From Chromatiaceae bacterium (GTDB lineage: Bacteria; Pseudomonadota; Gammaproteobacteria; Chromatiales; Chromatiaceae), in the NCBI GenBank assembly GCA_027078745.1, contig JALWWO010000009.1:1-64000 (forward strand): DNA of 64,000 nucleotides, given 5' to 3'. The notes under the pieces were generated by a model, which ran no database searches, had not been told where the DNA came from, and saw only the letters and a program-made list of their open reading frames with translations. Each line of letters starts with the position of its first letter. Position 1 is the first letter of the stretch. Shown here one piece after another: positions 3,323 through 49,656 of the stretch. The position numbers and the translations under genes are program-made.

Positions 3323-5139
3323 CTATCCATCAGGGCTCGGGCAATGGGAGCCGCCACCGCCCCACCATGCCCGCCGTTTTCCACGATGACCGCCAAGGCG
3401 ATGCGGGGTTGTTCCACCGGCGCGAAAGCGATGAACAGAGCGTGATCCCGCATCCGTTCCGCTACCTGCGCTTCGTTGTACCGCTCCTTCTGACCCACGG
3501 TGAACACCTGGGCGGTGCCCGTCTTTCCGGCAATGCGATAGGCCGAGGTGCGGATGCCTCGTGCAGTGCCCCGCTTGCCTTCGATGACCTGGGTCATATC
3601 GCGGATCACTTCCTCCACATGGGTGGGATGGAGAGGAAGATCCCGCACAAGGGTAGGTACCGGTTCGAGGCGGTCCGATCCGGGGACCTGGGTAGCGCGG
3701 ACGATGCGCGGTGCGATGAACTTGCCTCGGTTCGCCAGGGTGGCGGTGGCCACGGCCAATTGCAGGGGCGTGGCCAGAAAGGTGCCCTGCCCGATGCCCA
3801 CGATCAGAGTTTCCCCGGGATACCAGGCTTGTTTTCGGGTGCGGCGTTTCCAGGCTCGAGAGGGGAGCAGGCCGCCAAGCTCTCCAGCGATATCTATCCC
3901 TGTGCGCCGCCCAAAGCCGAATCCCGTTAGAAAGTCATGCAATCGGTCGATCCCGAGATCGTGGGCGAGGTCGTAGAAGTACACATCGCAGGATTCCACA
4001 AGGGCCTTGCGCAGATCGGTGGAACCGTGCCCCCAGCGCTTCCAATCCCGATATTTATGATCGTTGTTGGGTAACTGATAGTAGCCCGGGCAATATTTGC
4101 GATCCCCGGCCCGGCGGATACCGAATTCCAACCCAGCCAACCCCACGAAGGGTTTGATGGTGGAACCTGGGGGATACTGTCCGCGCAAAGCGCGGTTGAA
4201 CAGGGGGGTATCCAGGGAATCCCGCAGGGCGCTATAGGCCTTGACACTGATCCCCTCCACGAAGGGATTGGGATCGAAACTCGGGCTGCTCACCATGGCT
4301 AAGATGCCGCCGGTATTGGGATCGATAGCCGCGATCGCACCGCGGCGACCTTGCATGAGCTGAAAGGCATCTCGCTGCAAGCGAATGTCTAGATAGAGAT
4401 GCAGATTCTTCCCGGGCACGGGCAATCGGCTGTCCAACACCCGCAGTACTCGACCCTTTGCATTGACTTCCACCTGTTGATGGCCCACATGGCCGTGCAA
4501 GCTCTTTTCATAGGATTTTTCCACGCCGGTTTTCCCGATGTAGCGGGTACCGCGATAATCGCTGGCATCGATGCGCCGGAGCTCTCGCTCATTGATCCGC
4601 CCTACATAGCCGACCACATGGGCGGTGAGCTCGCCCAAGGGATAGGTGCGCAATAGTTCTGGCTGAATCGATACAGCGGGAAATCGGTAATTGTTCACCG
4701 CGATGCGGGCGACTTCTTCCGGCGTGAGATGGGTGCGCAGCGCGATGCCCTGGTAAGGCCGATGTGCCTGCTGCCGCCTGCGCTGGAATCGCTTTCGATC
4801 CTTTTCATCGATGGAGATGATCTGGGCGAGTTCCTGGATCAGGGCGGGCAAATCCTTCACCTTTTCCAAGGTGATCGTCAGGGAATAGGCAGGGGAATTG
4901 CCCGCAAGTAGGACCCCTTGTGCGTCATAGATCCGACCTCGGGTGGGGGGTAGGGCTTCGAGCTTGATCCGATTCTCCTGGGAAAGGGTGGAAAAATGCT
5001 GGTGCTGCTGCACTTGCAATTGGATGAGCCGCAGCACGATCAGCGACAACAGCAGCACCACGAAGAAGGCGGCGAACAGAGCACGGGCCCGAAAGCGTTG
5101 AAGGGCTTCCTTCTGTTCTGGAAAGAACGGAGCAGTCAT
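3205..5139 (-). CDS. mrdA: Peptidoglycan DD-transpeptidase PBP2
   Basis: Elongation-specific class B penicillin-binding protein; cross-links peptidoglycan of the side wall with RodA and MreBCD. One N-terminal membrane segment (ALFAAFFVVLLLSLIVL), a pedestal domain, then transpeptidase motifs: PPGSTIKPF (SxxK), SCDVYFY and AGKTGTAQVF (KTG). An ATG at 5139 fits better than the TTG at 5145, though either keeps it directly behind mreD. The last 36 or so residues after MDSYLLGK are Pro/Ser/Thr-rich and overlap kdsB convergently. rodA, the usual next gene, is absent here. Confidence 0.95.
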   Translation of the reverse strand: MTAPFFPEQKEALQRFRARALFAAFFVVLLLSLIVLRLIQLQVQQHQHFSTLSQENRIKLEALPPTRGRIYDAQGVLLAGNSPAYSLTITLEKVKDLPALIQELAQIISIDEKDRKRFQRRRQQAHRPYQGIALRTHLTPEEVARIAVNNYRFPAVSIQPELLRTYPLGELTAHVVGYVGRINERELRRIDASDYRGTRYIGKTGVEKSYEKSLHGHVGHQQVEVNAKGRVLRVLDSRLPVPGKNLHLYLDIRLQRDAFQLMQGRRGAIAAIDPNTGGILAMVSSPSFDPNPFVEGISVKAYSALRDSLDTPLFNRALRGQYPPGSTIKPFVGLAGLEFGIRRAGDRKYCPGYYQLPNNDHKYRDWKRWGHGSTDLRKALVESCDVYFYDLAHDLGIDRLHDFLTGFGFGRRTGIDIAGELGGLLPSRAWKRRTRKQAWYPGETLIVGIGQGTFLATPLQLAVATATLANRGKFIAPRIVRATQVPGSDRLEPVPTLVRDLPLHPTHVEEVIRDMTQVIEGKRGTARGIRTSAYRIAGKTGTAQVFTVGQKERYNEAQVAERMRDHALFIAFAPVEQPRIALAVIVENGGHGGAVAAPIARALMDSYLLGKSPEPPPEDQNASTRATSEGRSTPGPGGTDARSR

Positions 5140-5145
5140 CTGCAA

Positions 5146-5619
5146 TCAGCCGAAGTGATGTCGCAGATCACGCAGTAGGAAGAAAAATCCAAACCACAAC
5201 AACATGCTGAGAATGCTGGGCATCCAATAGATGAGGCTTGGGGTAGGGGTGCCCGTGGCTCCCATGATCCATAGGGAGAGCAACCGCTCAATCAAGAGCA
5301 ATGCCCAGATAGAAAGGGACTGCTGCACCAGCGGAAAAAGGCGGATGCGCCGATGCAGTTCAATGGCTAGCCAAGCAATCACGGAGAAGCTCAGGGCATG
5401 TTGGCCGAGCACGCTTTCCGTAGTGGCATCCAACAAGAGACCGACGCTCCAGCCCCAGAAGATGCCGACCCGTTCAGGGAAATACAGGTTCCAATAGAGA
5501 AGCGTCATCGCTACCCACTGGGGTCGCAGGGCTTCCCCCAAGGGAGGCAGGGGCAGAATGGTCAGCAGCAGGGCGATAGCAAAGCTGGTCAGAATCACCC
5601 AGAGGCGAGCGGCTTTCAT
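5146..5619 (-). CDS. mreD: Rod shape-determining protein MreD
   Basis: 157-aa inner-membrane protein of the elongasome, almost entirely hydrophobic with about five to six membrane segments (e.g. FAIALLLTILPLPPL near the N-terminus). It links MreC and the cytoplasmic MreB to the wall synthases. The start codon overlaps the mreC stop by 4 bp and the stop directly abuts mrdA, so mreC-mreD-mrdA is a coupled cluster. Confidence 0.92.
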   Translation of the reverse strand: MKAARLWVILTSFAIALLLTILPLPPLGEALRPQWVAMTLLYWNLYFPERVGIFWGWSVGLLLDATTESVLGQHALSFSVIAWLAIELHRRIRLFPLVQQSLSIWALLLIERLLSLWIMGATGTPTPSLIYWMPSILSMLLWFGFFFLLRDLRHHFG

Positions 5620-6467
5620 TCCGGTTCCTTTTGGCGTCGCTGGTCTATCGGTGAGAGATTCCAGACCAGCAAGACTTCCCGCGCTCGGTCGAGACGGGCA
5701 GTGGGTTTCGCCAGGACAGTGGCGAAGGGTTGTCCAGGTACATGCTCCACGCGGGTAATCCGCGCTACGGGATAGCCCGTGGGAAAACGGCCCCCCAAAC
5801 CGGAGGTGACCAAAAGATCGCCTACTCGCACGTCCGAAGTATGTTGCAAATAGGGCAATTTGAGTTGGTCAATCATGCCGGTGCCCATGGCAATGGTATG
5901 CAGCCCGTTGCGGTTGATCTGCACCGGCAGGGCATGGCTGGCATCGGTAATCAAGAGCACAGTGGCGGTGGAGGGATGGACTCGCGTCACCTGCCCCATG
6001 ACCGCATGGGCATCGAGCACCGGTTGACCCAGAGAGACACCGGCATCACTGCCTTTGTCGATGAGGACTTCCTGTCGGTAGGGATCCAGATCCACGGAGA
6101 GGATTTCTGCAATCCGCACCACATCGCCCACCTTGATGGAAGAACCCAAGAGCGCTCGCAGCCGGATGTTCTCCCGTTCCAAGGCTTCCAGTTTCTGCAA
6201 TCGGGCGCGCAGAATGAGATTCTCCCGATGCATCCGGGTGTTCTCCTGCCGCAGCGTCGCTTCGTCTGCTAGCTGCTCTTCCAGGGTGCGGCTCAACTGA
6301 CTGGGTAGATCCGCTAGATAGTGCAGCGGGGAGACCACCACGGAAAGTGCAGTGCGCAGGCGATCCCATTGCGGATAGCGATGATCGATCCAGATGAGAC
6401 TGATGGACAACCCCAGGGCGATGAGCACCCGATAGACAGGAGAAGGTTGAAGGAACAGGGCGTTGAT
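5616..6467 (-). CDS. mreC: Rod shape-determining protein MreC, probably AUC-initiated
   Basis: Bitopic membrane protein whose periplasmic coiled coil and beta domains organise PBP2. One N-terminal membrane segment, then a coiled coil (about residues 60-110, ENTRMHRENLILRARLQKLE), then the beta region with DASHALPVQ and VTSGLGGRFPTGYPVARI. The first conventional start is GTG at 6426-6428, but it has no ribosome site and cuts off the conserved N-terminus. Thirteen codons upstream an ATC (6465-6467) sits 6 nt after a perfect AGGAGG (6474-6479) and reads xNALFLQPSPVYRVL, which aligns with the start of E. coli MreC (MKPIFSRGPS). I therefore extend the gene to 6467; 283 aa. Confidence 0.9.
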   Translation of the reverse strand: MNALFLQPSPVYRVLIALGLSISLIWIDHRYPQWDRLRTALSVVVSPLHYLADLPSQLSRTLEEQLADEATLRQENTRMHRENLILRARLQKLEALERENIRLRALLGSSIKVGDVVRIAEILSVDLDPYRQEVLIDKGSDAGVSLGQPVLDAHAVMGQVTRVHPSTATVLLITDASHALPVQINRNGLHTIAMGTGMIDQLKLPYLQHTSDVRVGDLLVTSGLGGRFPTGYPVARITRVEHVPGQPFATVLAKPTARLDRAREVLLVWNLSPIDQRRQKEPE

Positions 6468-6479
6468 GGGAAGCCTCCT

Positions 6480-7877
<1,398 letters not shown>

Positions 7878-8210: not shown

Positions 8211-9665
8211 ATGCATGAGAAAAGCATTGCCGAACTGAGCGCTGGCCTCCGAAAGGGCGCGTTCAGCAGCTTGGAGCTGACCCAACACTTCTTGCAGCGC
8301 ATCGAAACCCTAGATCCTCGCCTCAACAGCTTCATCACCCGAGCTTCGGAAACCGCCCTCGCCGCTGCGAAACAGGCGGATCAGCGAATTCGGCAGGGCA
8401 CCGCCACCGCGCTGACCGGCATTCCCATCGCCCACAAGGATATCTTCTGTACCCAAGGGCTGCGCACGAGCTGCGGTTCCCGAATGCTCGACAATTTTAT
8501 CGCCCCCTATGACGCCACCGTAGTGGCCCGATTGAAGGAGGCGGGGGCAGTGATCCTGGGCAAGACCAACATGGATGAGTTCGCCATGGGCTCCTCCAAC
8601 GAAACCAGTTGGTATGGGCCTGTGAAGAATCCCTGGGATGAAACCCGGGTGCCCGGGGGCTCCTCCGGCGGTTCCGCCGCGGCGGTGGCAGCGCGCCTCT
8701 GCGCAGGGGCTACGGGAACGGATACGGGGGGTTCTATCCGACAGCCCGCCGCCCTGTGTGGGATCACCGGCTTGAAACCCACCTATGGGCGGGTCTCCCG
8801 CTGGGGCATGGTCGCCTTTGCGTCCAGCCTGGATCAGGCAGGCCCCATGACCAAGACGGCGGAGGATGCAGCCCTGCTGCTTCAGGTCATGGCGGGCTTC
8901 GATCCTAAGGATTCCACCTGTGCCGACGAACCCGTGCCCGATTACACAGCCTTTTTGCACCAAGATCTTCGGGGCCTGCGCATGGGTCTGCCGGTGGAGT
9001 ACTTTCAGGAAGGGCTAGATGCGGGAGTCGCCGCTTCCCTGGAACAGGCCATCGCAGTGTTCCGCAGTTTGGGTGTGGAGATACAAGACATTTCCTTGCC
9101 CAACAGTCCCTTAGCCGTGCCTACCTACTATGTGGTCGCGCCGGCGGAATGCTCTTCGAATCTCGCGCGCTTCGACGGGGTGCGCTACGGCCATCGCTGC
9201 CAGGATCCCAAGGATTTGGAAGACCTCTACAAGCGGAGCCGCGCGGAAGGCTTCGGCCCTGAGGTCAAGCGCCGCATCATGATCGGCACCTATGTGCTCT
9301 CTGCCGGTTACTACGATGCCTATTATCTGAAGGCGCAGAAACTGCGGCAGCGCATCAGCGAGGACTTTCAGCGGGCCTTTGAACAGGTGGATCTGATTCT
9401 CGGACCCACGGCGCCGAGCACCGCCTTTCCCCTGGGGGAGAAGATCAGCGATCCGGTGGCCATGTATCTCAACGACATCTACACCATCGCCACCAATCTG
9501 GCCGGTCTGCCCGGGATCTCCCTGCCCATCGCCCCGGTTTGCGGGCTGCCAGTGGGCTTGCAGCTCATCGGCAATCACTTTCAAGAAGCCCGACTGCTCA
9601 ACGCGGCCCATCAGCTGCAGCGGCATACGGATTGGCATCAGGCGGTCCCGCCGGGATTCGCTTAG
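8211..9665 (+). CDS. gatA: Asp-tRNA(Asn)/Glu-tRNA(Gln) amidotransferase subunit A
   Basis: Glutaminase subunit of GatCAB, an amidase-signature enzyme that releases ammonia from glutamine. The catalytic Lys-Ser-Ser triad is visible: [10 protein letters not shown] (Lys), [14 protein letters not shown] (cis-Ser) and [16 protein letters not shown] (nucleophile Ser). 484 aa, full length. Preceded by gatC. The usual third gene gatB is replaced by a TRAP-type binding protein, so GatB must be encoded elsewhere. Confidence 0.96.
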
Positions 9666-25954: not shown

Positions 25955-28330
25955 TCATCGCTTCTCTAGGGAAACCGGCCCGATCTGAGGGCCTAGCTGT
26001 TCGCTGCCGCTTAGACCAGCAGGGATGCGGGCGCAGCCGCGAGGAATTCTCGGATCCAACCGAACCGGTGCCTTGGCTAGCTTGCCTTCTCCCTGATCGA
26101 TTTCCACCTGATCCCCTGCACCAAGTCCCATCTCGGCTGCTTGGTCAGGATTTAGAGAAACCTGAAGGAATTCCGCATTGGCCTGCAAGGGCTCCGCCCG
26201 TCGCACCAGGGCATCCAACGCATAGATCGGCACATTGCCGATGCGGTAGAGCCTATCCCCGTTGGAGAGGCGCGGGGGAAGTTTTTTCAGATCGCCCCGA
26301 GGGTCATTGTTCGGCTTGGCATGAGCGCACTGTTTGCGCAACTCCTCTAACACTTCTTCCGAACTGCGGTAGTCGAAGCCTTCCAGCTCCAAGAGATTTC
26401 CCAGCACGCGGAGCACCTTCCAGCCTGGCCGCGCTTCGACCGGTGGCGGGATCGCACCTCGGAAGGATTGCCAATCCAACTGGGCATTGACCAGGGTGCC
26501 GGAAGTCTCGGCGAAAAGGGCGATGGGCAGCAAGAGATCCGCCACCCGTTCCAAGGCAGGGCTCCTGTACCCCGTGCAGGCGATGACGAAATCCGCTCGA
26601 TCCAATCCTTGCACTGCCTTGGCCGGATCGGCCAGATCAAAACCAGGTTCCAACCCCCAGAGCAGATAGACCTTGCGGGGCTTGTTCAGCATAGCTTCTG
26701 CCGATAACCCGGGGGTTTCCGCTGGTCTGGCGCCGGGCAGCCGATGGGGCAGGGCACCGGCCAGATAAGCGCCGAAGCTGTTGGCTGCTGCGGGCAAGAA
26801 ACCGACCTTCGCGCGGGTGGCGTCAGCGATGAGATGAGCCAACGCCCTGAGCAAGCTGTAATCCGGATGGGCGGTGGCTAATGCTCCCAACAGGATCAAA
26901 CCGCGATAGCGCTTGCCCGCCTGTTTCAGTTGCTCCGCAACTTCCACCTGTTGCGCCGTAGGCTTTACCTCGGAAATTAGAGTTCGGAGAGTGCCGGAAC
27001 CTCGCTTTCTCAGGGCTTTGGCGAGGGCGGCCAGTTCCCGCAGCATCCCGCTGGGGGAAGCCGTAAACTGGATGGCGGGGAAGGTCAGATCCAAGCGATA
27101 GGGGTTGACTGTTGCCACCAGGCCGCCGGCCAAAGCCGCCTTGCGCACGCGGTGGGCGAGCAGGGGTTGTTCCTGACGGATGTCGGACCCGATGAGGAGA
27201 ATCCCCTCCTGTTCCTCCACTTTGGCAATGGACACGCCCAGCCAAGGCAGCGAAGCATCTGCCGCATCGCCGCGGAAGTCCTGCTGACGCAGACGGCTGT
27301 CGATGGCTTGAGCGCCTAGCCCCCGCACCAAGCGTTGCAGCAAATACATTTCTTCCAGGGTTGCATTGGGTGCGATCAGCGCCCCCAGTTCTGATCCCGC
27401 CTCCCTGATCCGTTCCGCTGCGATCTGTAGGGCACCCTGCCATTCCAGTGCCTGCCAGCAGCCTCCTTCCCGCTTGATCATCGGCTCCCCGAGCCGATCC
27501 GGTGCAGATAGCCCTGTATAGCTGAAGCGATCTCGGTCGGAAATCCAGGTCTCATTGATGGCCTCCTGCGCTCGAGGATGGACCCGCACGAGTTGCCGAC
27601 CGCGCACATGCAGATGAAGATGGGAACCCAAGCCATCGTGGGGGGCGATGCCGTCTACCTGGATCAGCTCCCAGGGGCGTGCTCGAAATCGGGAAGGTTT
27701 GGCCGTGAGGGCGCCCACGGGGCAAAGATCGATGATATTGCCGGAAAGCTCATGCCCTAGGGTCTGCTCCACATAGGTGCCGATCCGCATGTGATCGCCC
27801 CGACCGGTGGCCCCCAGCTCCCGCAGTCCGGCGATCTCTGCTCCGAAGCGCACGCAGCGAGTGCAGTGAATGCAACGGGTCATTTCCGTGGCGATCAGCG
27901 GTCCTAAGTTCTCGTCTTTCACCACCCGTTTGGCTTCCGCATAGCGGGATTTGTCCTTGCCATAGCGCAGGGTCAGATCTTGGAGTTCGCATTCCCCCCC
28001 CTGATCACAGATGGGGCAATCCAGGGGATGATTGATGAGCAGAAATTCCAAGGTGCTCTGCTGGGCTTCCCGCGCGAGGGCGGAACGGGTCTGCACCCGC
28101 ATTCCTTCCATCACCGGCGTAGCACAGGCGGGTACGAGTTTGGGGAAGGGCCGCCCCCCTTGCTCCGCCTCCACCAGACACATGCGGCAATTCGCGGCGA
28201 TCGAAAGCTTCTTGTGATAACAGAAGCGGGGGATGGGAATGCCCGCCCGATCCGCCACCGCGATGATCATTTCCCCGGGGGTCGCCTCACAGGTGCGCCC
28301 ATCGATCTCGATTTTGACTTTTTGAGTCAT
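25955..28330 (-). CDS. nuoG: NADH-quinone oxidoreductase subunit G
   Basis: 791-aa peripheral-arm Fe-S subunit with a molybdopterin-oxidoreductase-like body. N-terminal clusters: [15 protein letters not shown] (2Fe-2S), [13 protein letters not shown] and [10 protein letters not shown]. It starts 181 bp after the parA-like insertion; the family N-terminus begins at the chosen ATG ([12 protein letters not shown]). The ribosome site is weak (CAGGGTAG about 13 nt upstream). Composition returns to high GC here. Confidence 0.96.
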
Positions 28331-28511
28331 TGGAGTGTGCCACTACCCTGAGGAGAATGTACCCACAATTTGCAGAAATTCCCCGTGCTGATCCATTGAG
28401 CGCCTGCTACCCCAGCTTGTTCGGCAGCGATCCAAGCATCTCATCTTATTCATCCGACTAACAGTGGTCTCTCCTTGCGATTTTCCGCAGATTGAGCCCC
28501 ATGAAGCTAGA

Positions 28512-29459
28512 TTATCCCTGTCCAGCAGAAACCGATTTATTTGGCGTGGTTCTACGGGTTCTTTTGTTCACCGAGAAACCCAAGTCCTGCACGACTTCAG
28601 CCACGATATTCCGCACATGATCATAATATGCTTCATATCGATCCGACAAAGTGAAGTATTCTATGGAGTCATCTGTTGCGTTGGACAGTTTTGGGGTCGG
28701 TGGTAAAATACTACTATAGATCTTACAATCTGCCATATTCGCGAACTGCATGAGCGCATCTTTATGGAGTTTATATTGCTTCGTCCTTCGATCCGCTTTA
28801 TTGAGCACAAAGCCGAGTAACTTGAAATCATTCCTGCTGCCGCGCCACGCTCTTATATTGCGCAACATTTTCATCGTCAACGGAATCGCATTGATATTAA
28901 TTCGATTGGGCTCCGTTGGAATGAGGAAGTAATCGGCTAAAAATGCGCCCACAAGGGCAAATCCATTGCGCTTAGATAGATTCCCGGGTAAATCAATGAA
29001 GATAAAATCATATCGCGCAGATAGACCCTCTTTCACCCAGGCTGCGAGATATAGGGAATCCTCTAACGTGGTAGACTCTTCAAAGTCCAATGCAGCTTCC
29101 GCCTCTGAAATGATGACATCGAGACTGCCTAATTTCGTTTTTCTCGTTTTAACCGAAGGACTTTCCGTTCGGGTTGCGATATAGTCCCCCAGATTGACCG
29201 GTTCTTTATCCTGCGCCCAGCGATCAAGCTGAGATTTCAGCGCATGGGGCAAAGTAAGCTTCTGACCTTTTAGCGCCGATACCTTCTCAATCCCAAGCAA
29301 GGCGTTTGCACAAGAACTTTGCGGATCGAAATCGATCACTAATACCCTGGATCTTCTTCCGTCTATGGGAATGGACGACAGGAAATCTGACAAAAATAAG
29401 GTTAGCGTAGTCTTACCGACCCCCCCTTTGTTATTATAGATGCCTACTATTTTAGCCAT
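28512..29459 (-). CDS. ParA/MinD-type P-loop ATPase inserted in the nuo operon
   Basis: 315-aa ATPase of the ParA/Soj superfamily. Deviant Walker A with signature lysine: NNKGGVGKTT (residues 9-18). Walker A' is VIDFDPQSS (D43) and Walker B is DFIFIDLPGN (about 151-160). No helix-turn-helix extension at the N-terminus, so it is the short chromosomal/McdA-like or plasmid type Ib-like size class. No ParB, CTP switch protein or parS site is visible. Three 60-base lines counted by hand give 45-48% GC against about 68% in two lines of nuoF and nuoG, indicating recent acquisition. It starts 20 bp after the nuoF stop, on the same strand, so it is transcribed with complex I. Its partner and cargo are unknown. 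Confidence 0.9.
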   Translation of the reverse strand: MAKIVGIYNNKGGVGKTTLTLFLSDFLSSIPIDGRRSRVLVIDFDPQSSCANALLGIEKVSALKGQKLTLPHALKSQLDRWAQDKEPVNLGDYIATRTESPSVKTRKTKLGSLDVIISEAEAALDFEESTTLEDSLYLAAWVKEGLSARYDFIFIDLPGNLSKRNGFALVGAFLADYFLIPTEPNRININAIPLTMKMLRNIRAWRGSRNDFKLLGFVLNKADRRTKQYKLHKDALMQFANMADCKIYSSILPPTPKLSNATDDSIEYFTLSDRYEAYYDHVRNIVAEVVQDLGFSVNKRTRRTTPNKSVSAGQG

Positions 29460-29463
29460 TTAC

Positions 29464-29480
29464 ATGGACTCCCAGTCCAT
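29464..29480 (-). promoter_or_regulatory. Hairpin carrying the parA ribosome-binding site
   Basis: On the minus strand ATGGACT-GGG-AGTCCAT is a perfect 7-3-7 inverted repeat starting at the nuoF stop codon. The loop and first bases of the 3' arm contain GGGAG, about 9 nt before the parA ATG, so the hairpin would partly sequester the ribosome site. Confidence 0.5.
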
Positions 29481-47716: not shown

Positions 47717-48486
47717 AGATATTTCTGCACGGTGCGCAACAGGGTTTCCTTATCGAAGGGTTTAGTGAGGTATTCGTCGGACTTGCTCATCTTGCCCCGA
47801 AGCTTGTCCATCAGGCTGTTCCGAGAGGTTAGGATGATGACGGGCATATGCTGAAGCTTTTCATTCTTTCGCACCATCTTTAACACCTCATAGCCATCCA
47901 CGCCTGGCATGATGAGGTCGAGCAGCAACAGGTCTGGCGATTCGTTACTCAGCTGGCCCAAGGCTTCGAAGCCGCTCCTGGCCTCGATCAGGGTATACCC
48001 TGCCTCTGACAAGGTGTTGACCACGAGTTTCCGCACGATGCTGCTGTCGTCCGCGATCAGGATTTTCTTCTCCCGCCGGCTGCCAGTACTTCGTGAAACC
48101 TGGACGTGCGGTTTTGTCGGGGGCGTCTTCTGATCGCTTTCTCCCAAAGCTTCCCGTGCAGCGGGCGAGTTCAGGCCGTATTCCAACCCGAAATAGGCGA
48201 AGAAATCTTCCGTATTCTTGAGGGACAGTGCATCTTGCGCATCCTCGGGTTTCTGACGGGAAGCGGGCTTTACATAAAATTTAACTTTGTCCTGGGCATT
48301 GAGCAGCGCAAGGGCTTCTTCCCCCTCTGCGCGTTTGTACTCATAGTTCTGAATGTTGCCCGCCTCGATGGCGATCTTGCCCCATCCATCGTCCTCTGTG
48401 AGGAAAAACACGGTACCGCTCTTTCCCGTCCTGCAGAACTTGCGCAGGGCTTTTAGAAAAGCAGTCAAAGGGAGCTCTTGATACAC
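47713..48486 (-). CDS. DUF4388-like domain fused to a receiver domain
   Basis: 257 aa. N-terminal part (1-75, TGKSGTVFFLTEDDGWGKIA) resembles the DUF4388 domain of gliding and type IV pili regulators (PatA-like). The REC domain starts at 141 (KILIADDSS), with phospho-Asp D190 (LLLLDLIMPGVDGYE) and KPFD. GTG start with AGGA 8 nt upstream. No DNA-binding or enzyme output, so it acts by protein contact, like PilG/PilH/CheY. Probably co-transcribed with the upstream REC-kinase (54-bp gap). Confidence 0.85.
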   Translation of the reverse strand: MYQELPLTAFLKALRKFCRTGKSGTVFFLTEDDGWGKIAIEAGNIQNYEYKRAEGEEALALLNAQDKVKFYVKPASRQKPEDAQDALSLKNTEDFFAYFGLEYGLNSPAAREALGESDQKTPPTKPHVQVSRSTGSRREKKILIADDSSIVRKLVVNTLSEAGYTLIEARSGFEALGQLSNESPDLLLLDLIMPGVDGYEVLKMVRKNEKLQHMPVIILTSRNSLMDKLRGKMSKSDEYLTKPFDKETLLRTVQKYL

Positions 48487-48540
48487 GATGGCATTCCTAG
48501 GATGCGGGGTCTGTACCCTTTTCGGTAAGTCGTCGAATCG

Positions 48541-49656
48541 TTAAGCAACACCAGCGTCAGATTGACTGCGCGGCAAGGTGAAAGAAACCCGGGTGCCCTT
48601 GCCTTCTTCGCTCTCCAACCAGATCCGACCCCCGTTCTTCTCAACCAATTCCTTGCAGAGAATCAGGCCCATCCCCGTGCCGATCTCGCCCGCTGTGCCT
48701 TGCCGCTTAAACTGCTGATCGATGCGAAACAGCTTTTTCTGATCTTCTGGAGAGATTCCGATGCCTGTATCCCAAACAGAAACTTGAACCCAAGGGCCTT
48801 CTAAGCGAGCGTCTAAGGTGATCTGTCCCCCCTCGGGAGTGAACATGAGCCCATTGGTGAGCAGATTGCGCAATATAGTCTGCACCATTTCCAAATCTGC
48901 CTTTGCAAAACTGCCCTCTGGAATGTGCGATTGGAGGAGGATTCGCTTTTGCTCCGCTTCCTCTCGGAAGAGCTCCAGCATATCGAGGGCAAGGGAACCG
49001 AGGTCGATCTCCTCGGGGTAAAAGATCTTGCCCCGTTGTAGATTTGCCCAGGTGAGCAGATTCTGAATCAGCCGGTGGAGATTTTCCGCAGAATCATAAC
49101 TCAACCGGAGGTATTCATAGCGCTTCTCTTCCTCCAAACGGTAGAAATCCTCTACGAGCATTTTCAAGACCCCCTTCAGCCCGCTGAAGGGTCCGCTCAA
49201 CTCCTGGGCTAGGATGGAGATGAACTTGTCCTTGCTGGCGTTCAGGGCCCGGGCTTCTTGCTCCGCTTGACGCAATCGCAAGTGGGTTTGGACCCTCGCC
49301 AGGAACTCCGCTTCTTTCCAGGGTTTGGCGAGGTAATCCACTGCGCCGGCCTCGAATCCTTCCAGAATGCTGTTCAGATCTGTGCGCGCTGTGATGAAGA
49401 GTACGGGGATGTCCGCTCGCTCCGGATTCGGATCTTGCTTCAATGCCCTGCAAACTTCAAAACCAGTCATATAGGGCATCATGACATCCAACAGGGCGAG
49501 ATCCACCTTCTCTGAACGGAGCAATTCCAAGGCTCGTTTCCCATCCGGTGCAGTCAGCAAGTGATATCCCTGCTTGCGCAAGGGCTTGGATGCGAGCTGG
49601 ATGTTGAGGGGTTCGTCGTCCGCGATCAGGATAGTAGGCGTGTTCTCGGTACTCAC
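48541..49656 (-). CDS. Receiver-histidine kinase lacking the phospho-acceptor histidine
   Basis: 371 aa: REC (8-125: IADDEPLN, LLDVMMPYMTG, KPWKEAEF), a short coiled linker, then a dimerisation box SKDKFISILAQELSGPFSG where the invariant His is Gln (Q151, codon CAG at 49204-49206). The catalytic domain retains NLLTNGLMFTPEGG, DTGIGISPEDQ and GTGMGLIL, so ATP may still bind, but autophosphorylation at the usual place is impossible. GTG start with GAGG 7 nt upstream. It may be an ATP-dependent scaffold, a phosphatase, or a regulator of the neighbouring kinase. Confidence 0.9.
   Translation of the reverse strand: MSTENTPTILIADDEPLNIQLASKPLRKQGYHLLTAPDGKRALELLRSEKVDLALLDVMMPYMTGFEVCRALKQDPNPERADIPVLFITARTDLNSILEGFEAGAVDYLAKPWKEAEFLARVQTHLRLRQAEQEARALNASKDKFISILAQELSGPFSGLKGVLKMLVEDFYRLEEEKRYEYLRLSYDSAENLHRLIQNLLTWANLQRGKIFYPEEIDLGSLALDMLELFREEAEQKRILLQSHIPEGSFAKADLEMVQTILRNLLTNGLMFTPEGGQITLDARLEGPWVQVSVWDTGIGISPEDQKKLFRIDQQFKRQGTAGEIGTGMGLILCKELVEKNGGRIWLESEEGKGTRVSFTLPRSQSDAGVA

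Follow-up and report, generated by a model that had tools for sequence, protein, structure and literature searches.

A lone ParA/Soj-type ATPase gene acquired between nuoF and nuoG in a Chromatiaceae bacterium

In the window (the whole stretch of 64,000 nucleotides that was analysed), an intact open reading frame of 315 codons with an ATG start lies on the minus strand at positions 28512–29459, between the nuoF and nuoG genes. ATPases of the ParA type usually help plasmids or chromosomes to segregate. The original prediction described a complete ParA-type ATPase gene that is co-directional with its neighbours and begins 20 bp after nuoF, and the list of open reading frames with its translation agreed with the Pfam domains in this respect. 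The locus comprises the following genes and features.

25955–28330, minus strand: nuoG, the downstream neighbour (Pfam Fer2_4, NADH-G_4Fe-4S_3 and Molybdopterin)
28331–28511, minus strand: spacer of 181 bp from the ATPase stop to the nuoG start, 51% GC, single copy in the genome
28512–29459, minus strand: lone ParA/Soj-type ATPase gene, 315 aa (open reading frame and translation, Pfam AAA_31/CbiA, PHROG, predicted fold)
29464–29480, minus strand: perfect 7-bp inverted repeat with a 3-nt loop, the sole exact copy in the genome
29480–30778, minus strand: nuoF, the upstream neighbour (Pfam Complex1_51K and related domains)

The gene is thus spaced 20 bp from nuoF and 181 bp from nuoG. Its GC content is 45.3% (GC3 48%), against 59.9% in nuoF, 61.3% in nuoG, and 58.3% in the window. 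The compositional contrast that had been predicted therefore stood, although the value of 68% given for the flanks was too high.

The translation contains a Walker A motif with the signature lysine (GIYNNKGGVGKTT), an A′ motif (VIDFDPQ), and a Walker B motif (FIDLPGN), which together are the motifs that define the ParA/MinD superfamily (KGGxGK[ST] with the signature lysine, DxD in A′, and D in Walker B). Pfam assigned AAA_31 at 67.2 bits (cut-off 27) and CbiA at 47.6 bits (cut-off 25.4), and the PHROG family ‘ParA-like partition protein’ matched with an E value of 1.1e-37. None of the nine NCBIfam models listed reached its own cut-off; the best, NF041546 (ParA family partition ATPase), scored 62.7 bits against a curated cut-off of 180. 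The AlphaFold2 model (pLDDT 79.4, pTM 0.82) has the ParA/Soj fold, as the best solved structures retrieved by Foldseek were Soj/ParA chains, led by a Soj chain at E 1.7e-12. The predicted fold and the Walker A signature lysine, A′, and Walker B motifs are shared with the Soj/ParA partition ATPases (PDB 1wcv, 8jmj, 5u1j), whereas identity is 15–25% in the ParA/Soj matches listed by Foldseek and a family-specific C-terminal stretch, LNKxDxRxKQYxLH...DDS...RYxxYYxxVR, differs. Soj among the best structural matches would suit a modulator of the host’s own chromosome segregation, working with or against the host Soj/Spo0J, but similarity to Soj in sequence is low (best PDB chain E 7e-7, over residues 5–57), and we regard this reading as improbable.

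The C-terminal tail is short and basic and has low confidence in the model. It does not read as the amphipathic membrane helix at the C-terminus of MinD, and its score with the MinD model was 18.8 bits, where the cut-off is 212.9, so the label ‘MinD’ in the original prediction was unfit. PADLOC assigned no known defence family to the window ATPase or to its relative from a Thiotrichaceae metagenome-assembled genome (MAG; L052), while the relative from a Desulfobulbaceae MAG (L055) reached only 19 bits to PDC-M28B over residues 2–44. The host genome gave a single other match at E ≤ 1e-3, a 354-aa ParA-like open reading frame on contig C18 (about 48100–49170; L014 1180–2244). By eye it overlaps the end of a CheB-like gene, and it is perhaps a chemotaxis-linked ParA.

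The arrangement around the gene is compatible with its being read from the nuo transcript. Between positions 28300 and 30800 we found three promoter-like sites against 1.9 expected and one terminator-like site against 2.4 expected, which is fewer than chance; the sole terminator-like site on the strand of the ATPase gene falls inside the gene itself. These counts speak neither for nor against a promoter and terminator of its own. From the arrangement of the genes we infer co-transcription with nuo. The inverted repeat includes the final base of the nuoF stop codon and overlaps GGGAG, a putative ribosome-binding sequence located 9 nt upstream of the ATG. As an RNA hairpin it folds only modestly better than shuffled sequences (z −1.71; 17 of 200 shuffles were equally good). 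Since it overlaps both the nuoF stop and the ribosome-binding sequence, we suggest that translation of the ATPase gene may be coupled to that of nuoF. Apart from one tRNA, Rfam reported nothing in the window at the gathering score. Among the papers listed by our literature searches, no title or abstract opening described a ParA gene in a nuo operon.

We considered a mobile element or prophage remnant and, judging by the insert and its ends, rejected it, as the insert is too small to hold a second open reading frame of 90 aa on the gene’s strand. Repeats flanking the insert did not go past short, chance-like matches. An assembly artefact would account for the sharp difference in composition from the flanks, and the host genome is a draft of 24 contigs, the one concerned here being 143,959 bp long. 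However, nuoF and nuoG flank a single 1.1-kb insert in the correct order and orientation, so that two false joins would be required, and in other genomes, too, a related gene stands by itself. An assembly join is therefore unlikely, and we consider an artefact highly improbable.

Comparison of the nuoF–nuoG junction in related genomes had been proposed together with the original prediction. NuoG was present in 53 of 57 genomes of the same family, including that of the window, and our sample comprised 30 loci: the window’s own and 29 taken from the 52 further genomes that matched NuoG. For 27 of these 29 relatives, the nuoG start lies −4 to 184 bp from the nuoF stop and the interval holds no gene; the remaining two had no nuoF match in the flank, so the distance was not measurable. 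The ATPase gene was accordingly absent from all 27 measured junctions, and with 23 further genomes outside the sample, the insertion is private to the window’s genome as far as seen. The 181-bp spacer showed similarity within the range of shuffles to each of seven long nuoF–nuoG spacers of relatives. Five relatives (L016, L024, L026, L034, and L027) have long spacers of 163–184 bp. The first four of these share a conserved GGTGCCGATCGAGAGA-like stretch at their nuoG end, the corresponding stretch in L027 being GGCGCCGATCGAGAGA; it is possibly a shared leader element.

When genome contigs were scanned with two short peptide patterns built on three members, the scan gave 10 loci, six of them in the same clade as the window ATPase. 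Identity to the window ATPase was 63% for the Thiotrichaceae copy (L052), 61% for a Methylococcaceae MAG (L053), 67% over the best segments for a Nitratifractor MAG (L054), 40% for the Desulfobulbaceae copy (L055), and 36% and 35% for two gammaproteobacterial MAGs (L056 and L057). The last two lie at the same places as matches found in two genomes of one genus by the class search. Genome searches added G861, from the window’s own family, and G1477, from the phylum of the L055 genome; because the pattern scan had missed both, the member counts are minima. The genome samples, which overlap in part, yielded few matches: three of 369 genomes of the class at E ≤ 1e-12 (the window’s included), three of 210 of the family at E ≤ 1e-25 (including the window’s and G012, which is outside the clade), one of 397 from the Nitratifractor genome’s phylum (the copy already known), three of 369 from the L053 genome’s class (none of them new), and two of 395 from the L055 genome’s phylum (one already known).

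The nine members seen thus come from Gammaproteobacteria, the Nitratifractor MAG, and the phylum of the Desulfobulbaceae MAG. A tree of the ATPase with McdA, MinD, Soj, and plasmid ParA had also been proposed. The tree that we built has 26 rows, plasmid, phage, and other ParAs among them, and unites the nine members in one separate group with support of 100/99, recovered in 100% of 200 bootstrap trees. L064 was left out of this tree because there was no open reading frame at the match, and L058, L072, and L003 have long branches. Another ParA group (100/99) consists of L147, from the genome G012 of a relative of the host, and the IMG/VR contigs L062, L063, and L065; by eye, its proteins have a longer, HTH-like N-terminus.

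We found no close home for the family on plasmids or phages in these searches. With the window ATPase as query, plasmid ParAs (pAQU1-type, Niveispirillum, and Lawsonia) showed 24–28% identity among the matches listed (20 of 70), and with the L056-type protein as query (IncC and pAcX50e) 26–27% among the matches listed (15 of 1139); alignments with plasmid ParAs covered about 90–98% of the query among the matches listed. Phage matches showed 24–27% identity in five records. In IMG/VR, searched with two short peptide patterns, the top five among the best 80 of 88 loci had 25–29% identity, and the same best 80 included L067 at 34% over about 186 residues and short P-loop segments of up to 48%. 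The plasmid ParAs lie outside the group formed by the window family, and in four of the five regions opened among these distant matches a ParB/KorB gene stands directly downstream. In the fifth, that of the Lawsonia plasmid, there was no ParB in the stretch seen, the record ending 339 bp downstream. As four of five plasmid ParA regions carry ParB/KorB, loss of such a partner is a plausible origin for the family.

We then compared the ParA genes with the SecA of their hosts. The window and G861, members of one family, share 72% identity in SecA and 38% in ParA, whereas the window and Nitratifractor share 51% in SecA and 64% in ParA (a 214-residue fragment was used). The ParA tree rejected a grouping of the window with G861 (p-AU 2.9e-4) and of the six gammaproteobacterial rows as one group (p 5e-89). 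The SecA tree, in which Nitratifractor is a long branch, united the hosts of the window and G861 (99/98) and rejected both a grouping of the window with Nitratifractor (p 0.01) and a group made up of the four clade-A hosts (p 2.4e-5). The Nitratifractor SecA and ParA genes that were compared share a contig, on which they lie about 1.3 kb apart, and this SecA was not grouped with gammaproteobacteria, which argues against a binning error as the source of this ParA. Because the ParA tree contradicts the SecA tree, transfer of the gene across phyla, whichever its direction, is well supported, and the predicted arrival of the gene by transfer is borne out by this conflict.

The prediction that no ParB or parS accompanies the gene also held in the window. 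A tblastn search with three plasmid ParB/KorB queries gave a best E value of 0.026 over 47 aa in the window and nothing credible in the adjacent 20 kb or at any of the eight relatives’ loci (10–17 kb), a search that a very diverged ParB could escape. The canonical chromosomal parS was absent from the whole window at up to three mismatches. Unlike Soj/ParA systems and the ParABS arrangement, in which ParB is encoded beside parA and parS lies near, the gene stands without a nearby ParB or canonical parS and fits the description of an orphan ParA, a parA that lacks parB or parS and is not part of the oriC parAB operon. Since all nine members are without an adjoining ParB as far as searched, the lone state is older than the insertion into nuo.

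The nine loci differ in their neighbours, which are nuoF/nuoG; a sortilin/BNR-repeat protein; a class-II aldolase and a YecR-like lipoprotein; telA, which ends 26 bp upstream of the ParA gene; a sigma-54 activator and nifH; a 751-aa protein and ycgL; a spore-photoproduct-lyase-like protein; an HD-domain protein; and, at one locus by eye, a nitrate-reductase-like molybdoenzyme. An all-versus-all comparison of up to 4 kb of flank, less at contig ends (only 287 bp downstream in L052), found sequence common to L056 and L057 only; a window/L057 match of 25 aa (E 6e-4) was read as chance. At the DNA level L056 and L057 match over the gene and about 25 bp upstream of it; the match then breaks off and starts again several kilobases downstream, at an ABC-F gene, which makes the region common to both but rearranged.

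Two sets of repeats were examined as possible shared element ends and rejected. Next to the L052 copy, the inverted repeat belongs to a 25-base repeat dispersed over that contig, with three near-exact copies in 16.7 kb (L149 180–204, 1313–1337, and 11435–11459), two of which flank the ParA gene in inverted orientation. Those around the G861 copy (L148) form arrays on both sides of the gene, with related repeats at about 3340–7260 and 8240–8570, some of them read within neighbouring open reading frames. Downstream of the Thiotrichaceae ParA gene, the contig end (L052 8909–9190) resembles by eye the 5′ portion of a group II intron; L149 had no Rfam match at the gathering score.

These neighbourhoods bear on whether the ATPase positions a cargo. 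McdA, PpfA, ParC, BcsQ, and MinD belong to the same superfamily and act without ParB; the window protein falls far short of the BcsQ and MinD cut-offs, and its gene adjoins nuoF/nuoG. The cargo proteins of positioning ATPases are usually encoded beside the ATPase gene. No neighbour is common to the loci compared here, except in the L056/L057 pair. McdA is recognised by a carboxysome locus with McdB, and of the ten neighbouring proteins of relatives scanned with Pfam none is carboxysomal. Complex I, suggested as the cargo in the original prediction, lacks comparative support because the nuo site was seen in the window’s genome only; clade relatives adjoin other, unrelated genes (telA, ycgL, nifH, and the class-II aldolase and spore-photoproduct-lyase-like genes), and we rejected this candidate. 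A positioner of the McdA/PpfA/ParC kind, which would use a partner encoded elsewhere to space a cellular cargo along the nucleoid, is possible if doubtful. It would agree with the appearance of McdA among the Foldseek matches, with the strong constraint in the L056/L057 pair described below, and with the account in the review PMC9178275 that other orphan ParAs position chemoreceptors and that McdA positions carboxysomes.

Selection could be measured only in relatives, since the 37 other genomes searched for relatives included no member of the host’s genus. Between L056 and L057, the ParA gene has dN 0.024 and dS 1.008 (dN/dS about 0.02), and the comparison genes have dN and dS values of 0.036 and 0.797 for SecA, 0.022 and 0.908 for ABC-F, and 0.160 and 0.925 for an RRM protein. 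In this one congeneric pair, ParA is as constrained as SecA and ABC-F. In all seven pairs compared, dN was well below dS (dN 0.20–0.33 in five clade-A pairs and 0.63 for window/G861), although outside L056/L057 dS was saturated except in L052/L053, where it was 2.6. The L053 and L054 copies, among the closest to the window gene, have interrupted frames; the gene may be dispensable, or these may be sequencing errors in the two MAGs, which is possible for L053 because its break falls at a run of A. A recently arrived ParA without function in this host, merely tolerated in the operon, would be consistent with the two interrupted relatives, the clearly foreign composition in the window, and the patchy distribution, as in the family sample described above. 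Such a passenger is nevertheless unlikely: the frame is intact over 315 codons, dN stays below dS with the saturation just noted, and the lone state predates the insertion.

The reading that we prefer, tentatively and with a probability of about 0.4, is that the gene encodes an acquired, ParB-less Soj/ParA-type ATPase that is read from the nuo transcript and disturbs the partition of incoming plasmids as ParI does. According to the review PMC9178275, orphan ParAs occur in many metabolic operons, and ParI, an orphan ParA on a genomic island of Pseudomonas putida, causes loss of IncP-7 plasmids through its ATPase motif. By that description, ParI resembles the window gene as a lone chromosomal ParA in acquired DNA; plasmid destabilisation by the window ATPase would be an analogy with it. 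In the proposed course of events, a single gene would have been acquired horizontally and inserted behind nuoF in the lineage of the window, where the nuo transcript would carry it, perhaps with translational coupling to nuoF. Given its motifs, the product should dimerise on ATP and bind DNA non-specifically. Because no partner gene adjoins, action in trans on the partition complexes of other replicons would be most likely, and the partition of incoming plasmids would be disturbed, as by ParI. We prefer interference with partition to cargo positioning because no partner or cargo gene is shared beside the members. The identity of 24–28% to plasmid ParAs appears low for poisoning a given partition complex, which is a real weakness of the preferred mechanism.

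A broader proposal is that this ParA family consists of a single gene, which moves between phyla (Gammaproteobacteria, the Nitratifractor lineage, and the Desulfobulbaceae phylum) with no accompanying genes and inserts beside unrelated chromosomal ones. Selection would keep it as a stand-alone anti-plasmid factor that poisons partition or as a nucleoid-organising factor, tied here to respiration through translational coupling to nuoF. In this full form we think the proposal quite unlikely to be correct.

Orphan ParAs are a known kind, to which the window gene adds a member, and the interest lies in a clade that is sparse and spread by transfer, stands alone at each locus seen, and is under constraint where this could be measured. 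Spread as a single gene, the lone state, and SecA-like constraint in one pair suggest that a ParA can be useful without a dedicated adjoining partner. The locus also shows that a nuo operon tolerates a foreign gene, pointing the same way, between nuoF and nuoG. If incoming plasmids are indeed poisoned, the gene would represent a minimal, one-gene barrier to gene transfer.
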